Source: a virus. Taken from it: 41,451 bases of DNA. The notes under the pieces were generated by a model. It saw only the letters and a list, made by a program, of their open reading frames with translations, was not told where the DNA came from and did not search any database. The stretch is taken from positions 1-41,451 of the IMG/VR virus record IMGVR_UViG_3300044635_000560; one strand, given 5' to 3'. Shown here one piece after another: positions 18,925-35,161 of this stretch; position 1 is the stretch's first letter; every line of letters starts with the position of its first letter. Position numbers and translations under genes: made by a program.

Positions 18925-19886
18925 CGACCCGTGTTCCGTACTCCATGACCGACGCCCCGGTCAACGTCAAAGCCTACGGTGCCAGGGGTGACGGCACCAC
19001 CAACGACAGCGCCGCGATCCAGGCGGCGATCAACGCTGCGGCGGGCACCGTCTACGTGCCCAAGGGCAACTACCTGGTGAACACCGGGCTGACGCTGCCC
19101 TCGAGCTGCCACCTTGAGTTCGAGGCGGGAGCGCTGCTCAAGGCTGGCACCAACTCGATGACGGTGATCTCGACCACGGCCGGGTTCAAGACCGGCATCA
19201 AGCTCAGGAACGTGGCGGTCGACGGCAACAGCAAGACCGGGGTCACCGCGGTGGCCCTGTCCAACGTGCAGTTCGACAGCGCGGTGGTGGGCCTGAACGT
19301 GAACGGCTGCGCCACCGGCCTGGTGCTGCAGTCGACCTGCATCGGCGTGCACGTCGACCACCCAACCATCTACGGCACGATCGACGCGATCAAGATCCTG
19401 GCGAGCAATGCCAACGTCGTGACCTGCCCGCAGATCGACCACCAGACCGGCGCCTCGCCGTTGACCGGCACGGGCGTCTACATCACAGGCTCGAGCAACG
19501 CGATCTATGGCGGGTTCATCCAGGGCTTCCAGCACGGGGTCTACGACCAGGGCGACTACAACAAGGTCGACGGCACCTACTTCGAGCTGTGCTCGGACAA
19601 CGCGCTGCGCTGGGACGGGTGCCTGCTGCCGACCGCGACCGACGTGTTCTTCTTCGGCCAGGCGGCGAGCGCCGGGGCGCGCTTCCTGTGCGTGGCGAGC
19701 GACACCAAGGGCGGCCGGGTGATGTGGCCGAAGATGGTGCAGGGCAACTCGACGGGCGGCCTGTTCTTCTTCAGCACCGGCAACACGGGATGCGTGGCCG
19801 ACTACGCCACCGACGGCGGCACGACCAACACCGCCACCGGCACGACGACCCAGATCACCAAGCCGGCCAACACCCAGGCGATCTAA
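18921..19886 (+). CDS. Second tailspike, pectate-lyase-like beta-helix
   Basis: 321 residues. The GTG start at 18921 overlaps the holin stop and follows AAGGGAG at good spacing. Residues 9-65 (VNVKAYGARGDGTTNDSAAI, VYVPKGNYLVNTGLTLPS) form the entry of a pectate_lyase_3 beta-helix; short parallel strands continue to about residue 290. Unlike the first spike it lacks a separate virion-attachment domain and has the normal high GC content. It may bind on top of another fibre protein. It is the last gene of the rightward late region and its end overlaps the convergent gene by 4 nt. Confidence 0.75.
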   Translation: MTTRVPYSMTDAPVNVKAYGARGDGTTNDSAAIQAAINAAAGTVYVPKGNYLVNTGLTLPSSCHLEFEAGALLKAGTNSMTVISTTAGFKTGIKLRNVAVDGNSKTGVTAVALSNVQFDSAVVGLNVNGCATGLVLQSTCIGVHVDHPTIYGTIDAIKILASNANVVTCPQIDHQTGASPLTGTGVYITGSSNAIYGGFIQGFQHGVYDQGDYNKVDGTYFELCSDNALRWDGCLLPTATDVFFFGQAASAGARFLCVASDTKGGRVMWPKMVQGNSTGGLFFFSTGNTGCVADYATDGGTTNTATGTTTQITKPANTQAI

Positions 19887-20320
19887 GCCCGGGCCCTGAG
19901 GTCCTCATTCGCGGCGCCCGCGTGGCGCCGCTCTGCTTCTTCGGCCACGGCCAGGCGGGCCTTCAGGCGCTCGAGCTCGTGGCGCTGGGCGGTCAATTGC
20001 TGGCGCAGCAGGATCAGGCTCAGGACCTCGCCGGCGGTGAAGGCTTCGCCGGCGGGGGAGAGGAGGCGGCCGTCGTGGAAGCGCCAGCCGGTCCAGCGGC
20101 CGGCGGTGCCAGGCAGATCGCCCAGCAGACCGCGCACTGCCAGAGTCTGAGCCCCGGGAATTTGCGTCTGTCCCGACAACCATCGCTGCACCGTCGTCCG
20201 GTGCACGTTGAGCTCGCGCTCGACGCGGCGCTGGCCGATGAGTTCGATGAGGTGTCGGAGGTCACGTTGCGGTCTCTGGTTGACTTCAAGCAGCGGCTGC
20301 GCCGCGGCAGTTCTACGCAC
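19883..20320 (-). CDS. HTH DNA-binding protein with C-terminal coiled coil
   Basis: 145 residues from GTG at 20320, which overlaps the upstream stop (GTGCGTAG). Residues about 28-50 (RRVERELNVHRTTVQRWLSG) form a helix-turn-helix. A WTGWRFHDGRLLSPAGEAFT segment and a Leu/Glu-rich coiled coil (QQLTAQRHELERLKARLA) follow. Similar phage proteins of unknown role combine an HTH with this GW-F-DG-L-P-G pattern. It is the last gene of the leftward operon. Confidence 0.65.
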   Translation of the reverse strand: MRRTAAAQPLLEVNQRPQRDLRHLIELIGQRRVERELNVHRTTVQRWLSGQTQIPGAQTLAVRGLLGDLPGTAGRWTGWRFHDGRLLSPAGEAFTAGEVLSLILLRQQLTAQRHELERLKARLAVAEEAERRHAGAANEDLRARA

Positions 20321-20486
20321 AGTCGCCGGTCTCGAGCCGGTAGCGGTTGAGCGCCGCCTCGCGCCGGGTGTCGTCTTCCTCGTACCGCTCGGCCAGGCGC
20401 TCGTACTCGGGGCTGTTCGGGCCGACCATCTCGGCCGCATCGACGGCGCACTGCTCGGCGTACCAGTCGTTGAAATCGGTTCGCAT
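20313..20486 (-). CDS. Small acidic protein, unknown
   Basis: 57 residues from ATG at 20486, preceded by GGAAG at about 8 nt. The product (MRTDFNDWYAEQCAVDAAEM) is acidic and rich in Arg and Glu, with no membrane segment. It overlaps the downstream HTH gene by 8 nt. Not recognised; supported by the ribosome site, codon bias and operon position. Confidence 0.6.
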   Translation of the reverse strand: MRTDFNDWYAEQCAVDAAEMVGPNSPEYERLAERYEEDDTRREAALNRYRLETGDCA

Positions 20487-20851: not shown

Positions 20852-21012
20852 TTTCTTGCTCCTGGTTGGCGACTCGATGAAGCAAAGTGTACACGATCTT
20901 TTAGCAGGTGCTGTAGGAAAAACCCTTAGATCAGGACGCATAATGTATATTGTGCCCTGCCATTTTGCTAAAGCGGGTCACAACTTACGGTTCGCATCAT
21001 GCTCAACCGCAC
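20852..21012 (-). promoter_or_regulatory. AT-rich regulatory gap with an operator-like site
   Basis: 161 bp without a gene and much more AT-rich than its surroundings. It holds TAGCAGGTGCTG (20902-20913), one base off the TAGCA-N2-TGCTA palindrome, and a lone TGCTA half near 20967. On the minus strand a weak promoter can be drawn (TTTAGC, 17 nt, TATACA). The exact start point cannot be fixed by eye. The nearby perfect palindrome at 21013 may belong to the same control region. Confidence 0.45.
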
Positions 21013-21028
21013 CCTAGCAAGTGCTAGG
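21013..21028. promoter_or_regulatory. Operator-like palindrome CCTAGCA-AG-TGCTAGG
   Basis: Perfect 7-nt arms around a 2-nt centre, the longest member of the TAGCA-N2-TGCTA family in the window. It contains the TAG stop codon of the leftward gene 21014-21196 and lies about 160 bp upstream of the 20851 start. Candidate binding site for the phage repressor or Cro-like protein. Confidence 0.5.
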
Positions 21029-24144: not shown

Positions 24145-24175
24145 AATGTAGCACATGCTAAAGCACGGCAGCTTA
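24145..24175 (-). promoter_or_regulatory. Early promoter with TAGCACATGCTA operator
   Basis: The minus strand has an extended -10, TGCTACATT (24145-24153 on plus), and a TGCC-containing -35 region. The palindrome TAGCACATGCTA (24149-24160) overlaps it. A 16-nt stretch (TGTAGCACATGCTAAA on plus) is identical at 29576-29591. It would drive the leftward operon beginning at 24137. Confidence 0.6.
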
Positions 24176-24184
24176 GGGCAAACC

Positions 24185-26260
24185 CTAGTCCTTGCGATAG
24201 CGCAGCGTCTCGAACCCGGCCGCGGCCAGCGGCACGTCGGGCGCCCACACAGGCTGCACAGACATGAGCCTGGCGAGGTCGGCACTGCTGTAGCGTTCGC
24301 TGTCGGGGGCCTCGGTGATCAGCTCGTCGTGCACGGTGAGCACGATCTCGTAGCCGGCCTGCTCGATCGCGGCCATGTTGCTGGCCAGCACGTCGCGGGC
24401 CCAGGCCTGCACCAGGTTCTCGACCAGCTTGCCGCCGTAGGTCTTGATCCGAGCCCACTGGCGTGTGTACTGGTTCACGCCCATGTAGCTGATCTGGCCG
24501 TCGTCGTCGACCTCGGGGTTGATGTAGCAGAGGTATCGGCCCGAGGGCAGGCGCACGCGCAGCCAAGCGCCGTCACGGCGCACGGCGATGTTGCGCACAC
24601 GGAAGACCTCGCCCGGGCGGCGGATGGCCTGGCGGGCGGCGTTGCCGAGGTCGGCCCACAGCGACACCGTGGCCGGGTGGGCAGCGCGCCAGGCAGCTTT
24701 CAGGATCTCGCAGGCCACGTACACGCGCTGCGACAGGCCGAGCGTGCGGCGCTTCTTGCTGGCCCACTTCCACATGCCCAGCGCAGCCTCGAGCGCCTCG
24801 GCGCTGGCCACACCCCACACCGCCTCGGCGAGCTCGTCGAGGTCCATCTGGTACACCGCGGCGAATGTCAGGAACGCGGCCACGCCACCCTCGTAGCCCA
24901 GGCCCAGCTCCATCACCTTGCCGATCTGGCGCTGCCACTTCTCGACGTCCTTCGCGTCGATGTTGAACGCGCGGGCGTAGGCCAGCTTGTAGAGGTCGGC
25001 ACCGCGGCCGGCGTCGAACTCGCGGAAGGCGCGCACCTTCCACGTCTCGCCTGCCACGTAGGCCAGGCCACGGCCCTCGATGTTGGACAGGTCCGCGACC
25101 ACCAGCTTCTTGCCGGATGGTGCTACGATGCAGCCACGCACGGTGTTTGCGGTGGCCCGCATTACGTCGTCGATAAGCAGCGGCGCGCAGCCGGCCTTCA
25201 GCGCCTCGATGGCCAGGTCGATCTCGTCCTGCTCCATGTCAGGCCGCGGCATGTTCTGCGGCTGGAACACGCGCCCGGCCCACCGGGCGGTGCGCTGCGC
25301 GCCAGCGAACTGCAGCGTGTTGCGCAGGCGGCCGTCGGCCGAGGTGGCCTTCACCAAGGCCTTGTACTTCGCGGTGCTGGTCTTCGTGGCCTCGAGCCGG
25401 ATCGACAGCAGCAGCTTCACCGCGTCGGGCAGCTCCGGGTCCTCGATCCGGCGGCGCAGCGTGTCGGCCCGCATGTCGGGCAGCTCGACCCCGTACTCCA
25501 TCAGGATGTGCGCCAGCAGCTCGTCGCGCTTGCTGGGGGAGGTGACTTGGCCCGCGGTCAGCGTGCGGGTCTCTTCCTTCAGCCGGGCCTGCTCGGTGGC
25601 CACCGCGTCGATCGCGGCGTGGGCGAGCTCGAGGTCGACGGCGAACCCGCGGTCGTTGATGCGCTGGTCGAGGTGCCACAGCGCGAGCTCTGGCGAGGTG
25701 GCGTTGTAGTTCCAGCCTGGCAGCTTCTTGTGCACGGCGCGCATCGAGACGATGTCCTGGCGGCTGTACTCCAGGAACTCGGCCCACTCGGCGGGGTGCG
25801 TTTCGCGGGTGGCGCGGCGCAGCGTGTGGCCCTTCGGCCTGGGCTTGCAGAAGAGCTGGATCAGGTCACGGCCGCGCTTGTCCTTGGCCTCGTCGCTGGC
25901 CAAGTTCAGGATGCCCGAGAGCTTGTCCAGGCTGCCCGGCAGCCCGTGCGCGAGCGCGCGAACCATCGTGTCCTGCCACCGCTCGACCGGCACGTCGATG
26001 CCCCACACGTGGCGCAGCAGGGTGCGGTCGAACATGGAGTTGTGCGCGACCACCGTCACGCCAGGCGCGCGCAGCCAGTCGCACAGTGCCTTCGACAGCA
26101 GTTTGCCGGTGGTCATGTCCTCGACCATCGGCTCGCCGTCGTCGATCGCCCACTGGGCGACCGTGATCTCGGTGCTGGGGTGCGCGGCGTAGGCGTGCGT
26201 GCCCGCGGCCTTGAGATCGCACTCGCTGTAGGTCTCGCAGTCGAACCAGAGGATGGTCAT
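24185..26260 (-). CDS. DNA polymerase I (family A) with 3'-5' exonuclease
   Basis: 691 residues from ATG at 26260; the longer frame adds only an unlikely basic leader. The exonuclease domain starts at once: LWFDCETYS (D7, E9) and later YSRQDIVSM. The polymerase domain has motif A VVADLSNIEGRG (D390, E395), motif B with RQIGKVMELGLGYEGG, and motif C TVHDEL (D645, E646). The DLSNIEGRG form marks the phage clade found with DUF2815 and DUF2800. It is the replicative polymerase of the phage. A structured leader precedes it. Confidence 0.95.
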   Translation of the reverse strand: MTILWFDCETYSECDLKAAGTHAYAAHPSTEITVAQWAIDDGEPMVEDMTTGKLLSKALCDWLRAPGVTVVAHNSMFDRTLLRHVWGIDVPVERWQDTMVRALAHGLPGSLDKLSGILNLASDEAKDKRGRDLIQLFCKPRPKGHTLRRATRETHPAEWAEFLEYSRQDIVSMRAVHKKLPGWNYNATSPELALWHLDQRINDRGFAVDLELAHAAIDAVATEQARLKEETRTLTAGQVTSPSKRDELLAHILMEYGVELPDMRADTLRRRIEDPELPDAVKLLLSIRLEATKTSTAKYKALVKATSADGRLRNTLQFAGAQRTARWAGRVFQPQNMPRPDMEQDEIDLAIEALKAGCAPLLIDDVMRATANTVRGCIVAPSGKKLVVADLSNIEGRGLAYVAGETWKVRAFREFDAGRGADLYKLAYARAFNIDAKDVEKWQRQIGKVMELGLGYEGGVAAFLTFAAVYQMDLDELAEAVWGVASAEALEAALGMWKWASKKRRTLGLSQRVYVACEILKAAWRAAHPATVSLWADLGNAARQAIRRPGEVFRVRNIAVRRDGAWLRVRLPSGRYLCYINPEVDDDGQISYMGVNQYTRQWARIKTYGGKLVENLVQAWARDVLASNMAAIEQAGYEIVLTVHDELITEAPDSERYSSADLARLMSVQPVWAPDVPLAAAGFETLRYRKD

Positions 26261-26427
26261 GGTGTTCTGTGGCCCGTTCCCCAGCATTGGCGCTTTGCGC
26301 TTGCGTCGCACCACGCCGTCTGAGCCCCGCCCGCTACATCGAAGTGCGGGGGCGGGCGAGGCCGATGCTGGGGCTGAGTCTCTCGGGGGCCAGGCGAAAG
26401 TAGGAGGTAGGTGCGACCCGCGGTTGA
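26261..26427 (-). repeat. Gap with inverted repeat CCCCAGCAT / ATGCTGGGG before the polymerase gene
   Basis: 167 bp without a gene. A perfect 9-nt inverted repeat (26279-26287 and 26365-26373) brackets a G/C-rich inner hairpin near 26328-26358 (CCGCCCGC against GCGGGGGCGG with a 2-nt bulge) and a small GCGC-TTT-GCGC dyad. On the minus strand this lies between the upstream SSB-like gene and the polymerase start, so it would fold in the mRNA. No U-run is present, so it is not a simple terminator. Confidence 0.45.
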
Positions 26428-27018
26428 TCAGACGAACTCTTCGGCGCCAGCGCCTGCAGTCACGTCCTCGAAGTCATCGGCCCGGGCCGGCGCGCTGCCG
26501 AAGGCGTCGCCGTCGGCGCGGAACTGGATGCCCACCAGCTTGCAATTGACCTGCTCGCCGTAGCGGTTGTCGGCGTAGACCTCGACCAGCGCGTTGACGT
26601 AGCACCCGCGGTAGATCGGGTTTCTGGCCGGGTCGGTGATCTCGTTGCGGAACTGGTCGTAGACCTTGGGCTTCTCAGCCTCGGCCTCGGTGTCGCCGCC
26701 CTTGCAGTTGGCCGACAGCACCCAGGTGCCCTCGTAGTGCGGGTTCTTCGCGGCCTTCAGGTCGCCGTCGGCCAGGCAGACCTTGCCCTTGGCGCGGGCG
26801 GCCTTGAGGAACAGCGCGGCCTTGGCGGCATCCTTGAGCTTGGCCTTGGCGGCCTCCTCGATCGCGGCGTTGATTACCGGCAGTTGCGGGTGATCGCCGG
26901 GCACGATCAGCGCAGCGCCGCAGCGGTAGGCTCCGGTGCCCTGGAACTGCTCACCCTTGAAGAGGTTGGGCCAGTCGACGCGGACGTTGTCCAGGCGGAA
27001 GCGGGTAGGTGTGGTCAT
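26428..27018 (-). CDS. DUF2815 ssDNA-binding-like protein
   Basis: 196 residues from ATG at 27018, with AGGAA upstream; the longer start at 27039 would overlap the previous gene. RVDWPNLFKG, YRCGAALIVP, NPIYRGCYVNALVEVYAD and GEQVNCKLVGIQF are the conserved strands of DUF2815, an OB-fold, SSB-like family. The C-terminus is acidic (DDFEDVTAGAGAEEFV), as in SSBs that recruit partners. It lies beside the polymerase and the Cas4-like gene. Confidence 0.85.
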   Translation of the reverse strand: MTTPTRFRLDNVRVDWPNLFKGEQFQGTGAYRCGAALIVPGDHPQLPVINAAIEEAAKAKLKDAAKAALFLKAARAKGKVCLADGDLKAAKNPHYEGTWVLSANCKGGDTEAEAEKPKVYDQFRNEITDPARNPIYRGCYVNALVEVYADNRYGEQVNCKLVGIQFRADGDAFGSAPARADDFEDVTAGAGAEEFV

Positions 27019-27035
27019 GGTTCGGGTTCCTTTTC

Positions 27036-28295
27036 TCAAACGAGGTCGCCAGCCTGGACTTCAAAAGCCTCCGCGACCGGCTGGACGGTGATCGCGGGGC
27101 GGAGGTCGGAGGCAGGGGCGACGCTGGGTGCGCCGTCCTTCTGCACGATGAGGGGTTGCAACTTCGGCCACTGGCGCGGGCCGATGTCGCCGGCCTTGGC
27201 CAGCTTCTCGGCAGTCGTCGGGCTGATCAGCTTCAGGTCGTAGGCTTTCTCGACGGGCAGCCGGAACTGCTCGCGCAGCACCTTCTCAGCCTCAGCAGGA
27301 TCGGCCCACTGGCGGGCGCCGCGCTTGCCGGGCACCAGCTTGTAGCCGGGCACCGGCTCGCCGTTCGACAGGCGTCGCAGCGACTCGGCGCGCACCGCCT
27401 TGCACCAGTCCTCGATCAGGTCGACCTTGGACAGGCAGGCGGCGAGCCAATTAGCATCGGAAGGCAGTGCGGCGTTGGGTGTTGCGGTGACAAAGTCAGC
27501 GAACTCATCTGGCGACGCGGCGGCCACGCCATGCACCTCAATGGATACCTCGTTGCGCAGCGCCGGGCAGGTGGCCTTGGCGCGGCACCAGCGGCACTGG
27601 TCGCCCGAGCGCAGGAACGTCTCATCCCACTTGCTGGTGCCGTGCGTTTGCTTGGCCGCCAGCACACTGGTGGCGCCGCTGCGTGCGGTCGATGTCAGCC
27701 AATGCACCAGCGCTTGGCGCGGCAGCGACCACTCGCTGGGTGCCTGGCGCACGCGGGGCTGATGGATCACGAGGCGCACGGTCTCGATGTCAATCCCGAG
27801 CGCTTCCATCTCCAGCAGCTTGCCGCCGGCGTACAGCATTATCTGCTCGTTGTGCATGGCGTCGACCTCAACACCGCGGCCGGTCTTCAGGTCGTGCACC
27901 TGGAGCTCGGTGCCGATCACCGCGGTGGCGTCGGCCGTGCCCCAGGCCAGGCTCTCGTCTACCTGCAGCCAGGCGGCGTAGTTGGTGCGGGTCTCGGACT
28001 CGAACAGGTCGGCGCCTGCGGTCATCTCCTTGAGGTTGCCGAGGTAGGTCTGCACGCAGTCGGCCATCTCGTCGTCGACGACAAAGTCGTACCCGTCCTG
28101 CTGGTAGGCCTGCCCGATGTAATCGGCCGCGGCCTTGCCGGTGGTCAGGCACCTGTCGGCCACCTGGTGCGCGACGCTGCCCCAGGCGGCGTACTCGCTG
28201 GTGTTGTCCGGCTGGCCCTCGGACAGCACGACGCTGCCCGGGCACGCGAGCCAGCGGCTTGCGGCGCTGGCACTGAGCTTGGAATGCGCGCTCAT
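27036..28295 (-). CDS. DUF2800 Cas4/RecB-like nuclease
   Basis: 419 residues from ATG at 28295 (GGAG 6 nt upstream). The nuclease core shows WGTADATAVIG, the D135-x-K137 motif in VHDLKTGRG, and NEQIMLYAGG. A Cys at 18 (WLACPGS) plus C234, C237 and C243 (CRWCRAKATC) match the 4Fe-4S cluster of Cas4/AddB-type nucleases. DUF2800 proteins occur with DUF2815 and PolA in phage replication modules and probably process DNA ends for recombination. The C-terminal 120 residues are an extra helical region. Confidence 0.85.
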   Translation of the reverse strand: MSAHSKLSASAASRWLACPGSVVLSEGQPDNTSEYAAWGSVAHQVADRCLTTGKAAADYIGQAYQQDGYDFVVDDEMADCVQTYLGNLKEMTAGADLFESETRTNYAAWLQVDESLAWGTADATAVIGTELQVHDLKTGRGVEVDAMHNEQIMLYAGGKLLEMEALGIDIETVRLVIHQPRVRQAPSEWSLPRQALVHWLTSTARSGATSVLAAKQTHGTSKWDETFLRSGDQCRWCRAKATCPALRNEVSIEVHGVAAASPDEFADFVTATPNAALPSDANWLAACLSKVDLIEDWCKAVRAESLRRLSNGEPVPGYKLVPGKRGARQWADPAEAEKVLREQFRLPVEKAYDLKLISPTTAEKLAKAGDIGPRQWPKLQPLIVQKDGAPSVAPASDLRPAITVQPVAEAFEVQAGDLV

Positions 28296-28297
28296 GC

Positions 28298-28750
28298 TCA
28301 GCTCCGTGCGGCGATCGCCTCGGTCACCAGGCGGTGGGCCGCGGGCCACTGCTCGGGCTTGAGCAGCTTGAATGTGTCGGCGCCCAGACTCTTGGCGATC
28401 GGCACGGCGGCCGTCGGGTCGAGCTTGTGCAGCGCGAGCACCTGCTTGGTGAGTTCGGCGTAGGTGATCTCAGCCGGCGCAGAGGGTGCAGCGGCAGGCG
28501 CTGCCGTGGGCTTCTCGGCCACCGGCTGCGGCGTGGCCGGCGCGGGCGCAGCGGGTGCCGGGCTCGGGGCCGCCTCGGCAGTAGGCTGGGAAGGGGCAGT
28601 TGGCGCAGCGGGTGCCGGCTTGGCCGCCGGCTTCGTGGGCTTTGGGGCGATGGCCGCCTCCGCGGTGACGACAGCGGCGGCGCCGTCGACCTTGGCCAGC
28701 AGCGCGGCGGCTGCGGCGACGTCGGTGAACTGGAAGGTGATCGTGATCAT
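28298..28750 (-). CDS. Ala/Pro-rich linker protein (150 aa)
   Basis: A short N-terminal segment (MITITFQFTDVAAAAALLAK) and a folded-looking C-terminal segment (EITYAELTKQVLALHKLDPT, FKLLKPEQWPAAH) are joined by about 65 residues of Ala-Pro-Lys repeats. Such bipartite proteins are common in replication modules next to DUF2800 and could tether partners. Function unknown. Ends 2 nt before the downstream gene. Confidence 0.6.
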   Translation of the reverse strand: MITITFQFTDVAAAAALLAKVDGAAAVVTAEAAIAPKPTKPAAKPAPAAPTAPSQPTAEAAPSPAPAAPAPATPQPVAEKPTAAPAAAPSAPAEITYAELTKQVLALHKLDPTAAVPIAKSLGADTFKLLKPEQWPAAHRLVTEAIAARS

Positions 28751-28753
28751 GGT

Positions 28754-29122
28754 TCAGGCCTCCTGGGCGGTCACGCGGTTGATGTAGTCACCGATGGTGA
28801 CGTCGGGCTTGGTGGTGCTGCGTCCAAGGGCGGCGAGCTCCTCGAGCGTGTACGGCTGGGCGCGGTCTTCCGACTGGTCCCGCTGGGTGCCTTGCCAGGC
28901 GCCGGTGGGCGACAGCAGGCGGAACCGCTCGCTCGCGCCGGCCGACTCGTTGGCGCGGACCAGGGCCTGGGCGGCGTCCTCGGGGCTGCTGAACGTCTCG
29001 ATGGACATCAGCGTCAGCCCGTCGTAGCAGGCCAGCACGTAGCGGCCCTGGCTGCGGAAGTTCTCGACGGCTGTGGAGAAGGCCTTCTCGTTCAGTCGGT
29101 TGATGGTGTTCAGATCGTGCAT
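28754..29122 (-). CDS. Hypothetical early protein (122 aa)
   Basis: ATG at 29122 lies just downstream of the promoter at 29150-29177, so it heads the DUF2800-DUF2815-polymerase operon. The protein is mixed alpha/beta (MHDLNTINRLNEKAFSTAVE, YVLACYDGLTLMSIETF), soluble, and not recognised. Confidence 0.6.
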   Translation of the reverse strand: MHDLNTINRLNEKAFSTAVENFRSQGRYVLACYDGLTLMSIETFSSPEDAAQALVRANESAGASERFRLLSPTGAWQGTQRDQSEDRAQPYTLEELAALGRSTTKPDVTIGDYINRVTAQEA

Positions 29123-29149
29123 GATGTGTTTAGCAGTTGAGAGAGGTGA

Positions 29150-29177
29150 ACTGTAGCAGAAGCTACAGGGTGGTCAA
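29150..29177 (-). promoter_or_regulatory. Early promoter with CTGTAGC-AGAA-GCTACAG palindrome
   Basis: On the minus strand: TTGACC (29172-29177), 16-nt spacer, TACAGT (29150-29155) preceded by TGC, an extended -10. The palindrome with perfect 7-nt arms (29151-29168) overlaps the spacer and the -10. TGCTACAGTTCAC is shared with the 29574 promoter. A half-site TAGCA lies at 29131. Confidence 0.7.
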
Positions 29178-29530
29178 GCGGCTTGCGCCACGGGACCCGA
29201 CAGGCGGGTGCCGTCGGGGAGGATGAAGAACTCGGGGTTGAACTCGCCCCAGGCTTCAGAGCGGGGGCCGATCAGCTCACCCTTGCCGATGCTGGGGGTG
29301 TAGACCGCGATGCAGTCCTGGCTCAGCAGTTGCGCCAGGTGGTAGACCTTGTGCCAAGCGGCGGCACCGTCGGTGAACTGGACGCAGGCGATGCAGGTCA
29401 GCTCGGTGTCAGAGTGCTTGAACTCAAACGACGCGGCACCGAAGGTGGCGATGACCTCGCGGATCGCGGTGCCCGAGCCGATGTTGCTGTTGCCGTTGAC
29501 TGCCAGGCCGATGTTCAGAATGACGTCCAT
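29174..29530 (-). CDS. Hypothetical early protein (118 aa)
   Basis: ATG at 29530 with GGAG 8 nt upstream; the longer frame reads through the promoter and is rejected. MDVILNIGLAVNGNSNIGSG and later strands (FKHSDTELTCIACVQF, WHKVYHLAQLLSQDC, NPEFFILPDG) suggest an alpha/beta fold. Similar small proteins occur in phage early regions without known role. Its stop overlaps the -35 element of the next promoter. Confidence 0.6.
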   Translation of the reverse strand: MDVILNIGLAVNGNSNIGSGTAIREVIATFGAASFEFKHSDTELTCIACVQFTDGAAAWHKVYHLAQLLSQDCIAVYTPSIGKGELIGPRSEAWGEFNPEFFILPDGTRLSGPVAQAA

Positions 29531-29573
29531 GTCGTTGCTCCAGTTACTGCAGCGTCCTTGCTGCGATGTGTGA

Positions 29574-29601
29574 ACTGTAGCACATGCTAAAACGCAGGCA
29601 A
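29574..29601 (-). promoter_or_regulatory. Early promoter with TAGCACATGCTA operator
   Basis: On the minus strand: TTGCCT (29596-29601), 16 nt, TACAGT (29574-29579) with the TGC extension. TAGCACATGCTA (29578-29589) is identical to the 24149 site. The leader to the ATG at 29530 is about 37 nt. The terminator of the upstream transcript lies directly before it. Confidence 0.7.
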
Positions 29602-29602
29602 C

Positions 29603-29628
29603 AAAAAACCCCACACGTTGGTGGGGTT
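29603..29628 (-). terminator. Rho-independent terminator
   Basis: Read on the minus strand: AACCCCAC, a 6-nt loop, GTGGGGTT, then a run of T. An 8-bp stem (29607-29614 with 29621-29628) and U-tract (29603-29608) form a classical terminator. It ends the short leftward transcript of the repressor-like gene and the 50-residue membrane protein. Confidence 0.85.
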
Positions 29629-29648
29629 CTCGTTCATCTACCTCGAGA

Positions 29649-29801
29649 TCAGAGGTGCAGCAGGGTCACCAGCAGCAGGGTCACCAGCGAGATGGCCAAG
29701 GCCCACCGCACCTGCCGGCGCAGATCCCCCAACGGGTCGTCCCACACGCCGCCGTGCTCGATCAGGTACGCGATCCTCTGCTTGATCTCTTCGTTGCTCA
29801 C
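29649..29801 (-). CDS. Small membrane protein (50 aa) after the repressor
   Basis: GTG at 29801 overlaps the stop of the repressor-like gene (GTGA), so it is translationally coupled. The acidic N-terminal part (SNEEIKQRIAYLIEHGGVWD) is followed by one strong membrane helix (WALAISLVTLLLVTLLHL) at the very C-terminus. A tail-anchored protein co-expressed with a repressor would fit a superinfection or membrane-signalling role; this is inference. Confidence 0.6.
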   Translation of the reverse strand: MSNEEIKQRIAYLIEHGGVWDDPLGDLRRQVRWALAISLVTLLLVTLLHL

Positions 29802-30223
29802 TTGCCGCTCCCTCGGAGTAGGTTGGTCAGTTGCTTGATGTGGTTCTCGTCCAGGCGGCCGGTCAGCTTGGCGCGGTCGTAGGCGAGCTGCACAAGGGTG
29901 CCGTAGGTCTCGGGGTCAGGTCTGAGACCCGCGTCACGAAGCACGGCGGCCACCGCCTTGACGACCTCAGTCAATGCTTGGTCGTTGAGTGGTTGGCCCC
30001 CGGCCGGGTGGTCCTGGTCCATCCAGCCGGCCGGCAGGCCCAGCTTCGTCTCGATCTCGCGTGCGGTCTTCTCGCTGATCTCGCGCGAGGGCCTGGGCCC
30101 GGCGATCTGCGCCAGGTAGGACCCGTTCGCGTGCCCAAGTTTGCGAGACAGGGAGGTGGGCCCGCCCCACTGGCCGATGAGCCGGCGCAGGTTCTCCCGC
30201 CTCGTGTCGTACACCGTGATCAC
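29798..30223 (-). CDS. CI/C-like phage repressor
   Basis: 141 residues from GTG at 30223; ATG at 30244 and GTG at 30216 are alternatives. Residues 7-60 (YDTRRENLRRLIGQWGGPTS, LSRKLGHANGSYLAQIAG, EISEKTAREIETKLGLPAGW) are a lambda-repressor-like helix-turn-helix of a kind common in proteobacterial phages. The rest is a helical domain with no LexA-like peptidase motif. It is divergent to the gene at 30309. Probable controller of the TAGCA-N2-TGCTA operators. Confidence 0.75.
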   Translation of the reverse strand: MITVYDTRRENLRRLIGQWGGPTSLSRKLGHANGSYLAQIAGPRPSREISEKTAREIETKLGLPAGWMDQDHPAGGQPLNDQALTEVVKAVAAVLRDAGLRPDPETYGTLVQLAYDRAKLTGRLDENHIKQLTNLLRGSGK

Positions 30224-30308
30224 CCGCCTACATTGGCACGTCATAGCAGGCTGTGCAAGCACTTTACAAAATGCTACAGTCGGGCCCCCACTTCACCTAT
30301 TGACTGCC
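30224..30308. promoter_or_regulatory. Divergent control region between repressor and Cro-like gene
   Basis: 85 bp. On plus, TGCTACAGT (30272-30280) is the same extended -10 as in the leftward early promoters; its -35 (GTGCAA at 16 nt) is weak. On minus, TGC-TATGAC with TTGTAA 18 nt upstream can be drawn. A TAGCA half-site (30244) and GTGC-AA-GCAC dyad (30253-30262) lie between. No strong ribosome site precedes the 30309 ATG. Confidence 0.55.
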
Positions 30309-30662
30309 ATGAGCACGATTACCCCCATGAAGGCCTGGATGATGGCCGCCACCCCCCAGGAGCAGGAGGCGCTGGCCCAGACGGTCGGCACCTCGAGGGC
30401 CATGCTGTACCACTACGCGGGCGGGTTCCGTGAGGTCAGCGCGTCGCGCGCTGGCGAGATCGAGGCTGCGACCAAGGCGATGGCCAAGGCCAGCAAGGGC
30501 CGGCTGCCGGTCGTGTACCGCACCGACGTAGCGGAGGCCTGCCGCGGGTGCGAGTACGCGAGGCGGTGCCTTGGCGACCGCGCCGTCGCCTCGCACTTCC
30601 CGATCGTTGATCCGCGTCAGGCGGATCTGTTCGGTGATTCTGAGGGCGGCACCGCCGACTGA
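30309..30662 (+). CDS. Cro/CII/YdaS-like regulator with Cys cluster
   Basis: 117 residues from ATG at 30309. The N-terminal 60 residues (MKAWMMAATPQEQEALAQTV, GTSRAMLYHYAGGFREVSAS, RAGEIEAATKAM) form a Cro/YdaS-type helix-turn-helix. The C-terminal part adds CRGCEYARRC, which may bind zinc, and ends in a disordered acidic tail. Divergent from the repressor and 3 nt upstream of the primase-helicase, so it likely opens the rightward early operon. Confidence 0.7.
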   Translation: MSTITPMKAWMMAATPQEQEALAQTVGTSRAMLYHYAGGFREVSASRAGEIEAATKAMAKASKGRLPVVYRTDVAEACRGCEYARRCLGDRAVASHFPIVDPRQADLFGDSEGGTAD

Positions 30663-30665
30663 GCG

Positions 30666-32648
30666 ATGAGCGCCGTGACCAAACTCAGCGCACACCTCAA
30701 CACCGTCACAGTCCCAGATGAGCTGCGGGAGATCCCGGGCTGGCTGATGTGGCGGCTCGAGTACCACGAGGGCGAGGACAAGCCCCGCAAGGTCCCGTAC
30801 TACCCCAACGGGCGACGCCGCCAGGGGCAGCAGGGTTCCCCCGAGGACAGGCAGCAGCTCACCACGTTCGACGCCGCGCGCAGTGCAGCCGCCCGCCGCG
30901 GGTTCGACGGCGTGGGCATTGCACTGCTGCCTGACTGGAACCTGACCGCGCTCGACTTCGACCGATGCGTCAGCGGTGGCCAGCTCCACCCTGAGGTGGA
31001 GGCGATCGCATCGACCAGCTACGCGGAGTGGAGCCCGTCGGGCACCGGCGTGCGGGTGCTGCTGCGTGGCCTGCTGTTCAACCGCAAGTCGTTCGAGGGC
31101 GCCTACGGGTTCGAGACCTTCAGCACGAAGGGGTTCGTGACCGTCACCGGCAACCGCTTGGAGATATGCGACGTGCTCGGCAACGAGAACACCGTGGCCC
31201 CGATCGGGGAGGAGGTGATGGGCCTGGTGCGCAAGCGGTTCACCCGCGCCGACGGGCCCACCACCAGCCACGACGACCCGGTGCTCGGCCTCACGCCCGC
31301 CCAGATCGAGCAGGGCCTCGAGCATCTGGACCCTGACACCGGCCACGATGAGTGGCTCCAGGTGGGCATGGCGCTGCACCACGAGACCCGCGGTGAGGGG
31401 TTCGATTACTGGTGCGACTGGTCCGAGCGGGGTGCGAAGTTCCCCGGCCGCGACATCCTGCGCCAGCGCTGGGACAGCTTCGGCAAGGGCGCAGGCCCGG
31501 TCGTCACCGGCAAGTCGTTCGTGCATCTAGCCAACGAGCACGGCGCCTCCATCGCTGGCGGTGCGCCGGCCAGCGCGGAGGAGTTCGAGGTCATGGTCAC
31601 CGAGACGGTGGAGGCGGCCAAGGCCAGTGGCAAGCCGCTGCGGTTTCAGTTCGAGCCGGTGCACACGTTCGCCAGCGCCACCGCGTCGCCCTGGATCGTG
31701 AAGGGCGTGCTGCCGCAGTCGGGCCTGGCGGTCATCTACGGCGCCAGCGGTGCCGGCAAGTCGTTCGTCGTGCTCGACCTGGCGCTGGCCATTGCCAGGG
31801 GCACGCCCTGGCGCGGTCGCAAGGTCAGGCAGGGGAGGGTGGCCTACGTGGCCGCCGAGGGCGCTGATGGGTTCAGGAAGCGCCTGGCCGCCTACGCCCA
31901 GCACAACAAGCTCGACCTCGCTGACGTGCCCGTGAGCGTGCTCAACGGGGCCCCCAACCTGATGCTGCTCGAGGATGCCAAGGACTTGGCCGTGGGCGTG
32001 CTGGCGGCGGGGGAGGACACCAGCGTGATCGTGGTCGACACGCTCGCGCAGACCACCCCTGGGGCCAACGAGAACGCGGGCGAGGACATGGGCAAGGCCC
32101 TGGGCCATTGCAAGCGCCTGCACGAGCTCACAGGGGCGCTGGTGGTGCTCATCCACCACAGCGGGAAGGACCAGGCCAGGGGCGCGCGTGGCTGGTCAGG
32201 CCTGCGTGCGGCGGCCGACGCTGAGGTCGAGGTGATCCGCACCGAGTCGGGCCAGCGTGCGCTGCGCCTGAGCAAGAACAAGGACGGTGAGGACGGCCTC
32301 GAGTGGGGCTTCGCGCTGGACGTGGTGCAGATCGGCGCTGATGAGGACATGGAGCCCATCACGTCGTGCGTGGTGGTCGAGGCCGAGCTCCAGGGCGTGC
32401 GCTTGCTGCGTCAGTTGGGGCCGAAGGAGGTGGTGGTCAACGAGGTGATCCAGGAGATGGCCAAGGCGCAGACCGAGGGCATTGAGGTGGCTGCGGTGCT
32501 GGCCGAGGCGGTCAAGCGGTTGCCGGCACCGGAGGATGGCAAGCGGGACACGAGGCGGCAGCACGCGAAGCGCGCGTTGGAGAGCCTGTGCAACGGTGAC
32601 ACGGCGCCGTATTGGATCGGCGACGACGGCTGCATCGCAGTCATGTGA
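30666..32648 (+). CDS. Primase-helicase (PrimPol-like N-terminus plus RepA-like ATPase)
   Basis: 660 residues. The N-terminal part (IPGWLMWRLEYHEGEDKPRK, LTALDFDRCV with D97 and D99) resembles the archaeo-eukaryotic primase-like domain of phage primases. A middle PriCT-like region follows (HLDPDTGHDEWLQVGMALHH). The ATPase has Walker A GASGAGKS (359-366), Walker B VIVVDTLAQ (D458) and LIHHSGKDQARGARG, typical of RepA/RAD25-like hexameric replicative helicases. It would initiate and unwind at the origin-like region directly downstream. The AEP assignment is moderate, the ATPase strong. Confidence 0.85.
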   Translation: MSAVTKLSAHLNTVTVPDELREIPGWLMWRLEYHEGEDKPRKVPYYPNGRRRQGQQGSPEDRQQLTTFDAARSAAARRGFDGVGIALLPDWNLTALDFDRCVSGGQLHPEVEAIASTSYAEWSPSGTGVRVLLRGLLFNRKSFEGAYGFETFSTKGFVTVTGNRLEICDVLGNENTVAPIGEEVMGLVRKRFTRADGPTTSHDDPVLGLTPAQIEQGLEHLDPDTGHDEWLQVGMALHHETRGEGFDYWCDWSERGAKFPGRDILRQRWDSFGKGAGPVVTGKSFVHLANEHGASIAGGAPASAEEFEVMVTETVEAAKASGKPLRFQFEPVHTFASATASPWIVKGVLPQSGLAVIYGASGAGKSFVVLDLALAIARGTPWRGRKVRQGRVAYVAAEGADGFRKRLAAYAQHNKLDLADVPVSVLNGAPNLMLLEDAKDLAVGVLAAGEDTSVIVVDTLAQTTPGANENAGEDMGKALGHCKRLHELTGALVVLIHHSGKDQARGARGWSGLRAAADAEVEVIRTESGQRALRLSKNKDGEDGLEWGFALDVVQIGADEDMEPITSCVVVEAELQGVRLLRQLGPKEVVVNEVIQEMAKAQTEGIEVAAVLAEAVKRLPAPEDGKRDTRRQHAKRALESLCNGDTAPYWIGDDGCIAVM

Positions 32649-32861
32649 ACGTGCAAGGAATCGCGAACATGCAAGAAAGCGCCTGCACCACCGTGCACCA
32701 CGATGCACCGTGCACATCGTGGTGCGTGGTGCATCCTGTGGATAACTGCACCGCACCGCACCACCACCCTATAAGGGGTGGTGCGTGGTGCAGTTATACG
32801 CAGCGGCGCGGTGTGCAGCCTTTCTTGGTTGTTTGAAAAGTTTTTCAAGAAAGGCCCTGGA
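32647..32861. other. Candidate replication origin: iterons, dyads, DnaA box, AT-rich tract
   Basis: 213 bp between primase-helicase and an HTH gene with no coding sequence. Contents: imperfect 14-nt direct repeat GAACrTGCAAGrAA (32647, 32665); seven exact GCACCAC/GTGGTGC units at 32685, 32695, 32719, 32726, 32758, 32778, 32785; dyad 1 (GCACCACGATG, 32695-32705, with 32715-32725); dyad 2 (ATAACTGCACC, 32742-32752, with 32787-32797, enclosing CACCACCC/GGGTGGTG around TATAAG); a DnaA box; and an AT-rich tract with TTGAAAA-GT-TTTTCAA at 32833-32848. This is the pattern of an iteron-type origin. Confidence 0.65.
32737..32745 (-). promoter_or_regulatory. DnaA box TTATCCACA
   Basis: TGTGGATAA on plus is the exact complement of the consensus DnaA box TTATCCACA. 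It sits between the two dyads of the origin-like region; its last bases start the ATAACTGCACC arm. Confidence 0.7.
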
Positions 32862-33131
32862 ATGGTCAGTGTGCAAAAAACTGCAAAGATGCGCCTGGTG
32901 CCGGTCAATGATCGGCGTCGGCGCATCGGCGAGCAACACCCCGGGGCTGTGCTCTCCGATCACGAGGTCGAGCTCGTGCACCAGCTCCGCGACGACGGCA
33001 TGCCCCTGGCCGAGATCGCACGCAAGATGGAGGTCAGCAAGGGTTGCATCTGGAAGATCGTGAGCGGCCACCGGCGGGGCCAGGTGCCGGCCGGCTGGGT
33101 GCGTGTCCGTGATCCGAAGGTTCGCGGCTAA
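32862..33131 (+). CDS. Small HTH (homeodomain-like) protein
   Basis: 89 residues from ATG at 32862 (AAAGG about 8 nt upstream); the longer frame to 32778 would cover the origin-like dyads, and an inner ATG lies at 32889. SDHEVELVHQLRDDGMPLAE and IARKMEVSKGCIWKIVSGHR form a resolvase-type helix-turn-helix. It could bind the neighbouring iterons or act as a terminase-region regulator. The 3' end contains the late-promoter motif copy E. Confidence 0.65.
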   Translation: MVSVQKTAKMRLVPVNDRRRRIGEQHPGAVLSDHEVELVHQLRDDGMPLAEIARKMEVSKGCIWKIVSGHRRGQVPAGWVRVRDPKVRG

Positions 33132-33134
33132 GGT
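33103..33134 (+). promoter_or_regulatory. Candidate late promoter, copy E
   Basis: GTGTCCGT (33103-33110), 18 nt, TAAGGT (33129-33134). This copy lies inside the end of the HTH gene; its box includes that gene's TAA stop. The terminase ATG follows at 33141, the same 38-nt distance from the motif start as in copy A. Confidence 0.55.
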
Positions 33135-33140
33135 CAGACC

Positions 33141-33569
33141 ATGGGCAACCTTCGACATCTCTGGACCGACGCCTTCCTTGCGCACCTGGCTGAGTGCGGT
33201 GTCCTGACCGACGCCGCCGCGGCTGCGGGCGTGGATCGCTCGAGCGTGTTTCGCCGCCGGCAGGACGACGAGGAGTTCGACGCCGCCGTGCGCGACGCGA
33301 TGGAGGCCGCCGCCGACAAGCTCGAGCGGGAGGCCCGCAGGCGGGCCCTGGAGGGCGTCGAGGAGCCCGTGTACCAGGGCGGGCAACTGGTGGGCACCAA
33401 GACGGTCTATAGCGACTCGCTGCTGGCCTTGCTGCTCAAGGGCAGGCGCAAGCAGGTGTTCGCTGAACGGGTGGAGCAGACCGGGCCCAACGGTGGCCCG
33501 GTGCAGTCCCAGGTGGTGATCGTCACCGGCGTGCCCGATGCGCCTGTGGCGATCGAGGATCTGGTCTGA
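33141..33569 (+). CDS. Terminase small subunit
   Basis: 142 residues. The N-terminal HTH (LTDAAAAAGVDRSSVFRRRQ, DDEEFDAAVRDAMEAAADKL) followed by a helical oligomerisation part with VYSDSLLALLLKGRRKQVF is characteristic of phage small terminases, which recognise packaging sites. It lies directly before the large subunit and overlaps its likely start. Confidence 0.85.
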   Translation: MGNLRHLWTDAFLAHLAECGVLTDAAAAAGVDRSSVFRRRQDDEEFDAAVRDAMEAAADKLEREARRRALEGVEEPVYQGGQLVGTKTVYSDSLLALLLKGRRKQVFAERVEQTGPNGGPVQSQVVIVTGVPDAPVAIEDLV

Positions 33570-34909
33570 CCGCGATCGACCTCGGCTACCGGCCCAGGGC
33601 CTGGCAGGCCGAGTGCCACCTCAACCGCCGGCGCTTCACGGTGCTGGCGCTGCACCGGCGGGCCGGCAAGACCGAGCTCGCACTGGCCGAGCTCATCGAC
33701 AAGGCGCTGCGGTTCAAGCACGAGCTTGGGTTGTTCTTCTACGTTGCGCCACTGCTCAAGCAGGCCAAGGCCATCGCATGGTTGCGCCTGAAGCAGAAGG
33801 TCACGCCGCTGCTCATGCGTGGGATGGTCGAGATCAACGAGTCCGAGCTCTGGGTGCGGTTCACGACCAACGGCGCCGTGATCCGCGTGTACGGGGCCGA
33901 CTCGCCCGACCGCATGCGAGGCGTGCGCCTGGATGGTGTCGTGCTCGACGAGGTGGCGCAGATGGCGCCCGAGGTGTGGGACGACATCCTGCAGCCGGCG
34001 CTGTCTGACCGCCTGGGCTGGGCGCTGTTCATCGGCACACCCAAGGGCGTGAACCTGTTCTCCAAGCTGTTCTTCGAGGCACGCGACAAGACGAACTGGC
34101 ACTCGGCGCTCTACACGGTGCACGACACCGAGTCGATCGACCCGGACGAGGCCCGCCGATTGCAGGCCGAGATGAGCGAGCTCTCGTGGCGGCGCGAGTA
34201 CCTGTGCGACTTCAGCGCCGCCGGCGACGAGCAGCTCATCAGCCTGGCCGACGTGGAGGAGGCCACACGGCGCCACCTGCGCCGCGACCAGTACGACTTC
34301 GCGCCCGTGATCCTGGGCGTGGACCCTGCGCGGTTTGGCGATGACCGCAGCGTGATCAGCGTTCGCCAGGGCCTGCTGGCCCGGGACTTCCGGGTCTACA
34401 CCAAGATCGACAACATGGCGCTGGCTGCCTACGTGGGCCAGGCCATCGCCGACTTCCAGGCCGACGCGGTGTTCATCGACGCAGGCAACGGGGCGGGCGT
34501 CATCGACAAGCTGCGCCAGATGGGCCACGAGGTCACCGAGGTGCACTTCGGTGGCCGGGCGAGCAAGCCCCGCTACGTCAACAAGCGCGCCGAGATGTGG
34601 TTCGAGATGCGCGAGTGGCTGGCGCTGGGCGCTGCGATCCCGCGCAACACGGCGCTGATGCAGGACCTGGCTGCGCCGATCTACACGTTCGACAACCAAG
34701 ACCGCGTGGCGCTCGAGGCCAAGGACGACATCAAGAAGCGTGGCCTGCCGTCGCCTGACCTGGGCGATGCGCTCGCGCTCACGTTCGCGTTCCCCGTGGC
34801 CAAGGAGCGGGACCTGCGCCGCCAGGCCGCCATCCTGGCCGGGCACCGGGCGGGGCAGTTCGACTCCGACGTCAGCGTCACCGCCTACGACCCGATGGCC
34901 GGCATCTGA
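33566..34909 (+). CDS. Terminase large subunit (ATPase-nuclease), CTG start
   Basis: 447 residues if started at CTG 33566. The frame before the first standard start (GTG 33641) encodes LGYRPRAWQAECHLNRRRFT, the conserved adenine-binding start of large terminases, so translation must begin further up; no ATG, GTG or TTG exists there. CTG 33566 overlaps the small-subunit stop and has GAGG about 9 nt upstream. Walker A is HRRAGKT (30-36) and Walker B DGVVLDEVAQ. The nuclease has GVDPARFGDD, DAGNGAGV and GDALALTFAF. Translocates DNA into the prohead. Confidence 0.9.
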   Translation: MTAIDLGYRPRAWQAECHLNRRRFTVLALHRRAGKTELALAELIDKALRFKHELGLFFYVAPLLKQAKAIAWLRLKQKVTPLLMRGMVEINESELWVRFTTNGAVIRVYGADSPDRMRGVRLDGVVLDEVAQMAPEVWDDILQPALSDRLGWALFIGTPKGVNLFSKLFFEARDKTNWHSALYTVHDTESIDPDEARRLQAEMSELSWRREYLCDFSAAGDEQLISLADVEEATRRHLRRDQYDFAPVILGVDPARFGDDRSVISVRQGLLARDFRVYTKIDNMALAAYVGQAIADFQADAVFIDAGNGAGVIDKLRQMGHEVTEVHFGGRASKPRYVNKRAEMWFEMREWLALGAAIPRNTALMQDLAAPIYTFDNQDRVALEAKDDIKKRGLPSPDLGDALALTFAFPVAKERDLRRQAAILAGHRAGQFDSDVSVTAYDPMAGI

Positions 34910-34914
34910 GGCGC

Positions 34915-34946
34915 GTGTCCGTCTGATCGGCCCGCATCCGCAGAAT
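34915..34946 (+). promoter_or_regulatory. Candidate late promoter, copy C
   Basis: GTGTCCGT (34915-34922), continued CTGA, starts 5 nt after the terminase stop. After 18 nt comes CAGAAT (34941-34946), the weakest box of the set. The next gene starts at 34970 behind GGAG. Confidence 0.55.
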
Positions 34947-34969
34947 CCCCCTGCAGACTGGAGCTTCCC

Positions 34970-35155
34970 ATGTGCATGTCATCGCCCAACATTCCCCCGC
35001 CGCCCCCGCCTCCGCAAGAGGCCAAGCAGCCTGACTCGATGGCCATGCGTCGGCGCCAGCGCACGAGCACCTCGCCCGGCACCATGCTGACCGGGCCCTC
35101 GGGCGTGTCGTCTGGCGGGTTGAGCACCGGCGGCGCCACGCTGCTGGGCGGGTGA
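34970..35155 (+). CDS. Small Pro-rich head protein (61 aa) before the portal
   Basis: 61 residues from ATG at 34970, GGAG about 6 nt upstream. MCMSSPNIPPPPPPPQEAKQ is followed by a basic stretch (MRRRQRTSTSP) and TGPSGVSS with a Gly/Leu-rich end. Proteins with this Cys-start, poly-Pro and TLLG-like C-terminus are common beside the portal gene of such podoviruses; role unknown, perhaps structural. Confidence 0.7.
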   Translation: MCMSSPNIPPPPPPPQEAKQPDSMAMRRRQRTSTSPGTMLTGPSGVSSGGLSTGGATLLGG

Positions 35156-35161
35156 TCGCCC

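Follow-up and report, generated by a model that had tools for sequence, protein, structure and literature searches.

Organization of the immunity region

The virus record IMGVR_UViG_3300044635_000560 of IMG/VR (41,451 bp, analysed whole and referred to here as the window) carries podovirus-type genes, among them those for internal virion proteins, a head-tail adaptor, a DNA polymerase, a Gp2.5-like single-stranded DNA-binding protein (SSB) and an exonuclease. Its immunity region is built around two divergent regulatory genes, and a palindrome lies between them and again to their left, overlapping promoter elements. On the minus strand, positions 29798-30223 encode a CI-like repressor of 141 residues, with an N-terminal helix-turn-helix (HTH) and a small helical C-terminal part. 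On the plus strand, positions 30309-30662 encode a Cro-like regulator of 117 residues with a YdaS-like HTH.

The CI-like protein matches the transcriptional repressors of PHROG 12107 (E 3e-14) and, by profile, the structure 7nkv. Its AlphaFold2 model (predicted local distance difference test, pLDDT, 83) predicts a C-terminal part that is short and helical, and no Pfam match to a self-cleaving C-terminal domain of the S24/LexA type was found in the protein. This lowers the identity with lambda CI while leaving the mechanism in place; not every lambdoid repressor has that domain. In Foldseek searches of the PDB, neither the CI model nor that of the XafT-like protein described below gave a match under E 0.001; the top CI match was the phage repressor 5d50, with E above that value, and the N-terminal domain of PaaR2 stood lower in the list. 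The Cro-like protein has weak profile matches to Cro of prophage CP-933P (8co2, 8c7k). It also has a conserved cysteine cluster after the HTH (C78, C81 and C87), perhaps a metal site. The PDB sequence neighbours of both proteins are the regulators of CP-933P. A preliminary description of this DNA had named the two proteins as the obvious candidate regulators, and these are the right candidates.

Operators within extended -10 promoters

The palindrome follows the 18-bp consensus CT[T/G]TAGCA-N2-TGCTA[C/A]AG. At up to two mismatches, four copies are present in the window (starting at 24146, 29151, 29575 and 30262), whereas none was found in 60 first-order Markov shuffles. A shorter 12-mer with two mismatches occurs 11 times against 6.4 expected, which is not significant by itself, and was dropped as statistical evidence.

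The most informative site of the set is O_R (CTTTACAAAATGCTACAG, 30262-30279, plus strand), an imperfect palindrome in the CI/Cro intergenic region. Its right arm forms the extended -10 of P_R (TGC TACAGT, 30272-30280). On its other side lies a putative P_RM for CI (30230-30258, minus strand), with a -35 TTGCAC at 30258-30253, a spacer of 17 nt and a -10 CAATGT at 30235-30230. A leaderless CI mRNA is implied, because the GTG start codon of CI is only 6 nt beyond this putative -10.

The remaining copies are on the minus strand. O_L1 (29575-29592) lies in P_L1, with a -35 TTGCCT at 29601-29596 and a -10 TACAGT at 29579-29574. O_L2 (CTGTAGCTTCTGCTACAG, 29151-29168) lies in P_L2, with a -35 TTGACC at 29177-29172 and a -10 TACAGT at 29155-29150. 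O_L3 (CTTTAGCATGTGCTACAT, 24146-24163) is upstream of the distal left genes, including those for an endonuclease and a helicase; its -10 is TACATT (24150-24145), and this promoter has no good -35.

Most of this geometry had been seen beforehand. The preliminary description had reported an identical repeat of TAGCACATGCTA, which is exact at 24149-24160 and 29578-29589, and a palindrome CTGTAGCAGAAGCTACAG, which is that of O_L2; it had also proposed that the right arm forms the extended -10 (TGCTACAGT or TGCTACATT on the minus strand), with 16 nt between the two -35 hexamers and their -10 hexamers, as is the case. The motif search that it suggested gave the four 18-mers, including the copy between CI and Cro, which it had missed. 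In effect, its interpretation was largely right and incomplete: the intergenic operator, the fixed geometry of the CI promoter, the survival of the sites after loss of CI and the operators at a dif-like site and xafT promoter are additional to it.

Conservation of the operator in related phages

Relatives were drawn from the metagenomic records of IMG/VR, with CI and Cro as queries; the database labels these records linear, and their completeness is uncertified. O_R, O_L1, O_L2 and O_L3 are found at corresponding positions in relatives whose CI is 70-98% identical. Sites equivalent to O_R are kept between CI and Cro in dozens of relatives, the operator being conserved across about 69 distinct intergenic regions. 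The distance from the end of O_R to the TTGC of the P_RM -35 is 3 nt in 35 of the 41 relatives that could be parsed.

Since the extended -10 coincides with the right arm, the repeats might be no more than conserved sigma-70 promoters that no regulator reads. A non-circular test was therefore applied, in which nonredundant extended -10 elements ([TC]GCTA[CA]AnT) were gathered on the leftward strand without regard to the left arm. Among 54 CI-bearing phages, TAGCA (up to one mismatch) is at the palindromic offset in 71 of 74 such sites, 63 of them exact, and no other offset scores above 1. The left arm is thus nearly as conserved as the -10, and this pattern reflects conservation of an operator rather than of a promoter. 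Because this conserved arm falls in the promoter spacer, where sigma-70 has, to our knowledge, no preference for TAGCA, a DNA-binding dimer is its natural explanation. The palindromic character of O_R, although imperfect, also speaks against a promoter without a regulator, a reading that we regard as very improbable. Thus, the preliminary proposal of operators fused to extended -10 promoters is backed by phylogenetic footprinting.

A host regulator such as LexA is another conceivable ligand. LexA boxes have the spacing CTGT-N8-ACAG, and the CTGT and ACAG ends of the palindrome resemble them. Nevertheless, these ends are separated by N10 in the 18-mer, and the half-site differs in a clade with divergent CI and Cro (L121, L122, L124 and L126), which has TTTCGCA in place of TTTAGCA. 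LexA or a similar host protein is consequently given hardly any credence. The same clade should be useful to map specificity. These sequence comparisons show the palindrome to be a genuine operator of the phage repressor/Cro kind, kept in dozens of tailed relatives.

Loss of CI and the identity of the ligand

Assigning the sites to CI or to Cro by recognition-helix covariation was tried and failed, as both proteins vary along with the half-site. L113 and L114 share the SPS helix motif, yet TTTAGCA is kept there. More information comes from 13 records in which Cro is present and CI is absent at the locus. A profile search of 12 of these CI-less contigs did not find CI; this search had no positive control, although a related query did find CI in CI-bearing records. 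A tree of Cro, a short protein that leaves many forks open, needs seven changes of CI state, which suggests some seven losses of CI in the family. In two such phages, CI is cut to its first nine codons followed by a stop (MQNVYSQRR* near 3450 in L136 and MQSVYALRR* near 3400 in L201). The terminator-like sequence downstream of the remnant is retained in both, and the deletion end points are similar in the two lineages.

Of the 22 nonredundant extended -10 sites in the CI-less phages, 21 keep the left arm, so that maintenance of the sites does not require CI. It could be argued instead that only CI reads the operators, that Cro acts elsewhere and that the sites in CI-less phages are relics, and the CI-less lineages L136 and L133 do have near relatives with CI. 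Against this, the sites that keep the left arm come from 13 records spread across about seven losses. In addition, the CI-less L025 and L028 carry CAGCA rather than TAGCA as the left arm common to several operators, which indicates an altered specificity and not a decay of the sites. Reading by CI alone is thus considered unlikely. Cro emerges as the leading candidate for the protein that reads the operators; where CI is present, it is a probable second ligand. In L028, a gene after a leftward operator also contains a 13-residue peptide, DNFSLEHGCYQTA, in tandem.

There is precedent for sharing of sites. In CP-933P, PaaR2 (the CI analogue) and YdaS (the Cro analogue) protect overlapping regions with 18-bp palindromes of half-site GTTTAGTAA (PMC8630535). 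From this precedent and the retention of sites without CI, we infer that CI and Cro bind the same operators. The repeated loss of CI with operators retained would, in turn, be a natural test of Cro acting alone.

A dif-like site and an XafT-like gene

Towards the end of the left operon lies a dif-like site, GGACGCATAATGTATATTGTGCCCTGCC (20934-20961, plus strand), which is a putative attP. The Burkholderiales dif with which it was compared, CGCATAATGTATATTATGTNAA, is found at up to one mismatch in 62 of 150 Burkholderiales genomes, in single copy in all but one. The XerC arm and the 6-bp centre of the phage site match this chromosomal dif, and its XerD arm differs. The attP sites of TLCphi and of the gonococcal genomic island (GGI) likewise combine an intact dif-type XerC arm and centre with a divergent XerD arm (PMC5357621).

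An operon on the minus strand ends in a gene for an XafT-like Xer recombination activation factor (19883-20440; conserved part 19886-20275). Its product matches DUF3653 above the cut-off (33.1 against 22.4 bits) and the VC1465-family Xer recombination activation factors of NCBIfam NF040522 with E 3e-10, under the cut-off of that model; all 14 homologues examined match NF040522. An XafT of a Vibrio cholerae integrative mobile element exploiting Xer (IMEX) is named in PMC9765430. Above the cut-off, DUF3653 was detected in 16 of the 18 genomes that bear the dif-like site and in 2 of 17 others, counts that are uncorrected for phylogeny. Smaller contigs with a host-type dif also carry XafT-like genes.

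Neither tyrosine integrases (PF00589) nor serine recombinases (PF00239) were found in the window, a record near full size of uncertified completeness. Most CI-bearing relatives are without a tyrosine integrase, which is present in 6 of 26 CI-bearing records and in L021, and no serine recombinase was seen in ten genomes tested. The dif-like element (up to two mismatches) is present in 18 of 20 CI-bearing genomes without integrase, in none of seven with integrase and in none of eight CI-less records, five of which were counted as containing the region. The resulting contrast of 18/20 with 0/12 gives a Fisher p of 4e-7, uncorrected for relatedness. In L118, one of the two exceptions, CI is truncated. 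The phage-type dif pattern occurs in 28 contigs of IMG/VR, 22 of which are from this phage family. Two copies of the dif-like site less than 1 kb apart were observed in each of two single phage contigs, G022 (6586 and 7250) and G034 (42737 and 43634).

Operator-like sequences surround this site. On the xafT side, 19 of 20 copies of the dif-like core have one at a distance of about 26 bp (to within 2 nt), and many copies have a second operator 22 bp further, which overlaps the xafT ATG in several relatives (e.g., L213, L216 and L226). The window has a recognisable counterpart of the first alone, a weaker fifth site, O_att1 (CTACAGCACCTGCTAAAA, 20899-20916, minus strand), upstream of the operon; two small genes lie between it and xafT. 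On the other side, an operator half-site, ATTTTGCTAAAG (20962-20973, plus strand), is beside the XerD arm, where several relatives have a fuller operator-like palindrome. Through operators in that position, the repressor could act as a direct gate on recombination. The palindrome CCTAGCAAGTGCTAGG (21013-21028), which the preliminary description had placed in the operator family, lies about 75 bp away from the dif-like core. It is present, has a CTAGCA half-site and is conserved in relatives as TTCTAGCANNTGCTAGAA, but it stands beside the dif-like site and not in a promoter. One form or the other also occurs in L208, L210, L213, L214 and L221, possibly as an operator variant or an accessory site.

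A proposed switch for lysogeny

The sites, their geometry, their conservation and the gene content can be read from the sequence itself; from these and from precedent, the following model of binding, repression and Xer-mediated integration may be proposed. Dimers of the CI-like repressor and of the Cro/YdaS-like protein would bind the consensus palindrome. The bound protein would keep RNA polymerase off P_R (cro and primase) and off P_L1, P_L2 and P_L3, which serve genes of recombination and replication, because the right arm of the operator is itself the extended -10 (TGC TACAnT). Because 3 nt separate the end of O_R from the -35 that drives the leaderless CI message, occupancy of this operator would also set the level of CI; probably CI activates and Cro represses. 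The xafT-like gene would be under the same switch, because a further operator lies upstream of its operon, next to the dif-like site, and its product would activate host XerCD, so that the phage could insert at chromosomal dif and be excised again. A lambda-type CI/Cro switch on these palindromes that also controls the xafT-like gene, and with it XerCD-dependent lysogeny, is considered very likely.

The operator-covered gene probably lets phages without an integrase enter the chromosome through host XerC and XerD. With somewhat less assurance, it seems likely that a whole podovirus-like clade without integrase lysogenises in this way at dif, with a phage XafT-like activator under CI/Cro operators, and that loss of CI is accompanied by loss of the dif-like site and xafT while Cro and the early operators are retained.

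Several observations weigh against this model. The joint change of CI, Cro and half-site in divergent phages means that covariation cannot assign the sites to one protein, and losses of CI that look recent (L136 beside L018) make site retention there weak evidence. The attP-side operator of the window is poor, with three mismatches to the consensus. Furthermore, no prophage at chromosomal dif was found in 399 Burkholderiales genomes or in the contigs inspected, although this set may contain few such prophages. Two scans for integrated relatives gave one contig, which lacks the dif-like site; the CI search of the 399 genomes gave one clear relative within a larger contig (G193), without dif; and the phage-type dif pattern gave only two chromosomal-looking sites.

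As an integrated copy was not seen, the dif-like site and XafT-like protein might resolve multimers of a plasmid prophage instead of acting in chromosomal integration. Plasmid cer and psi sites use XerCD too. By contrast, the match of XerC arm and 6-bp centre to the Burkholderiales chromosomal dif is what integration requires, the divergent XerD arm is as in TLCphi and GGI (PMC5357621), and no parA or parB was seen among the window proteins scanned. A plasmid prophage is accordingly regarded as less probable than integration.

Comparison with known systems

The closest parallel to the regulatory part is CP-933P, a prophage of E. coli O157:H7 with PaaR2, YdaS and YdaT. Its CI and Cro HTH proteins are related by profile to those of the window, its paaR2 is leaderless, it has an additional P_L promoter, and its overlapping 18-bp palindromes have the half-site given above where the window has CTTTAGCA (PMC8630535). 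In contrast to CP-933P, one imperfect operator is recognised at O_R instead of four repeats, the sites are spread over about 9 kb, and there is an operator at the dif/xafT module. No toxin-antitoxin gene was noticed in the window; a CII/YdaT homologue was not searched for.

With the O_R/O_L switch of lambda, the window shares divergent cI and cro with an operator between them, one operator repeated at P_R and P_L where it overlaps promoter elements, and a leaderless cI read from P_RM. It differs in its 141-residue repressor without a recognised self-cleavage domain, in the fusion of an operator arm to the extended -10, in having internal operators at distant positions along the left operon and in lacking an integrase. 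The gene content is close to that of Bordetella phage BPP-1 (Rauchvirus), as regards the exonuclease, Gp2.5-like SSB, DNA polymerase, helicase and divergent CI/Cro. Nevertheless, the immunity regions are unrelated: CI of BPP-1 is UmuD-like, and that phage has its own integrase and excisionase.

The putative integration module resembles that of the IMEX TLCphi (Vibrio) and GGI, which share with it the form of attP described above and a nearby XafT-family gene. The window has a dif-like attP, no integrase of its own and an XafT-family activator, which corresponds to the TLCphi subtype. Unlike those elements, it belongs to a podovirus-type tailed double-stranded DNA phage of about 42-46 kb, with the module under CI/Cro-type operators. 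The Xer-exploiting phages known so far are for the most part small elements of filamentous or satellite type. Tailed phages are unmentioned in a 2017 review of Xer-exploiting elements (PMC5357621), and no tailed Xer-dependent phage was found in the open-access literature, which covers part of the field only. If the model is true, Xer-dependent lysogeny would be widened to tailed phages, with a clean model of a lysis-lysogeny switch tied to a host recombinase, and a missing integrase gene would be no proof of a virulent phage.

Other features of the window

An open reading frame of 2,901 residues at positions 6294-14999 probably encodes a giant virion protein; an LPD22 domain lies close to the start of the frame. 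Finally, when positions 27039-36886 are compared with the relative G003 (L010), terminase, portal and primase are 98-100% identical, while identity is 81% in Cro, 78% in CI and 73% in the exonuclease. To judge from this contrast in identity, it looks like an exchanged immunity module.

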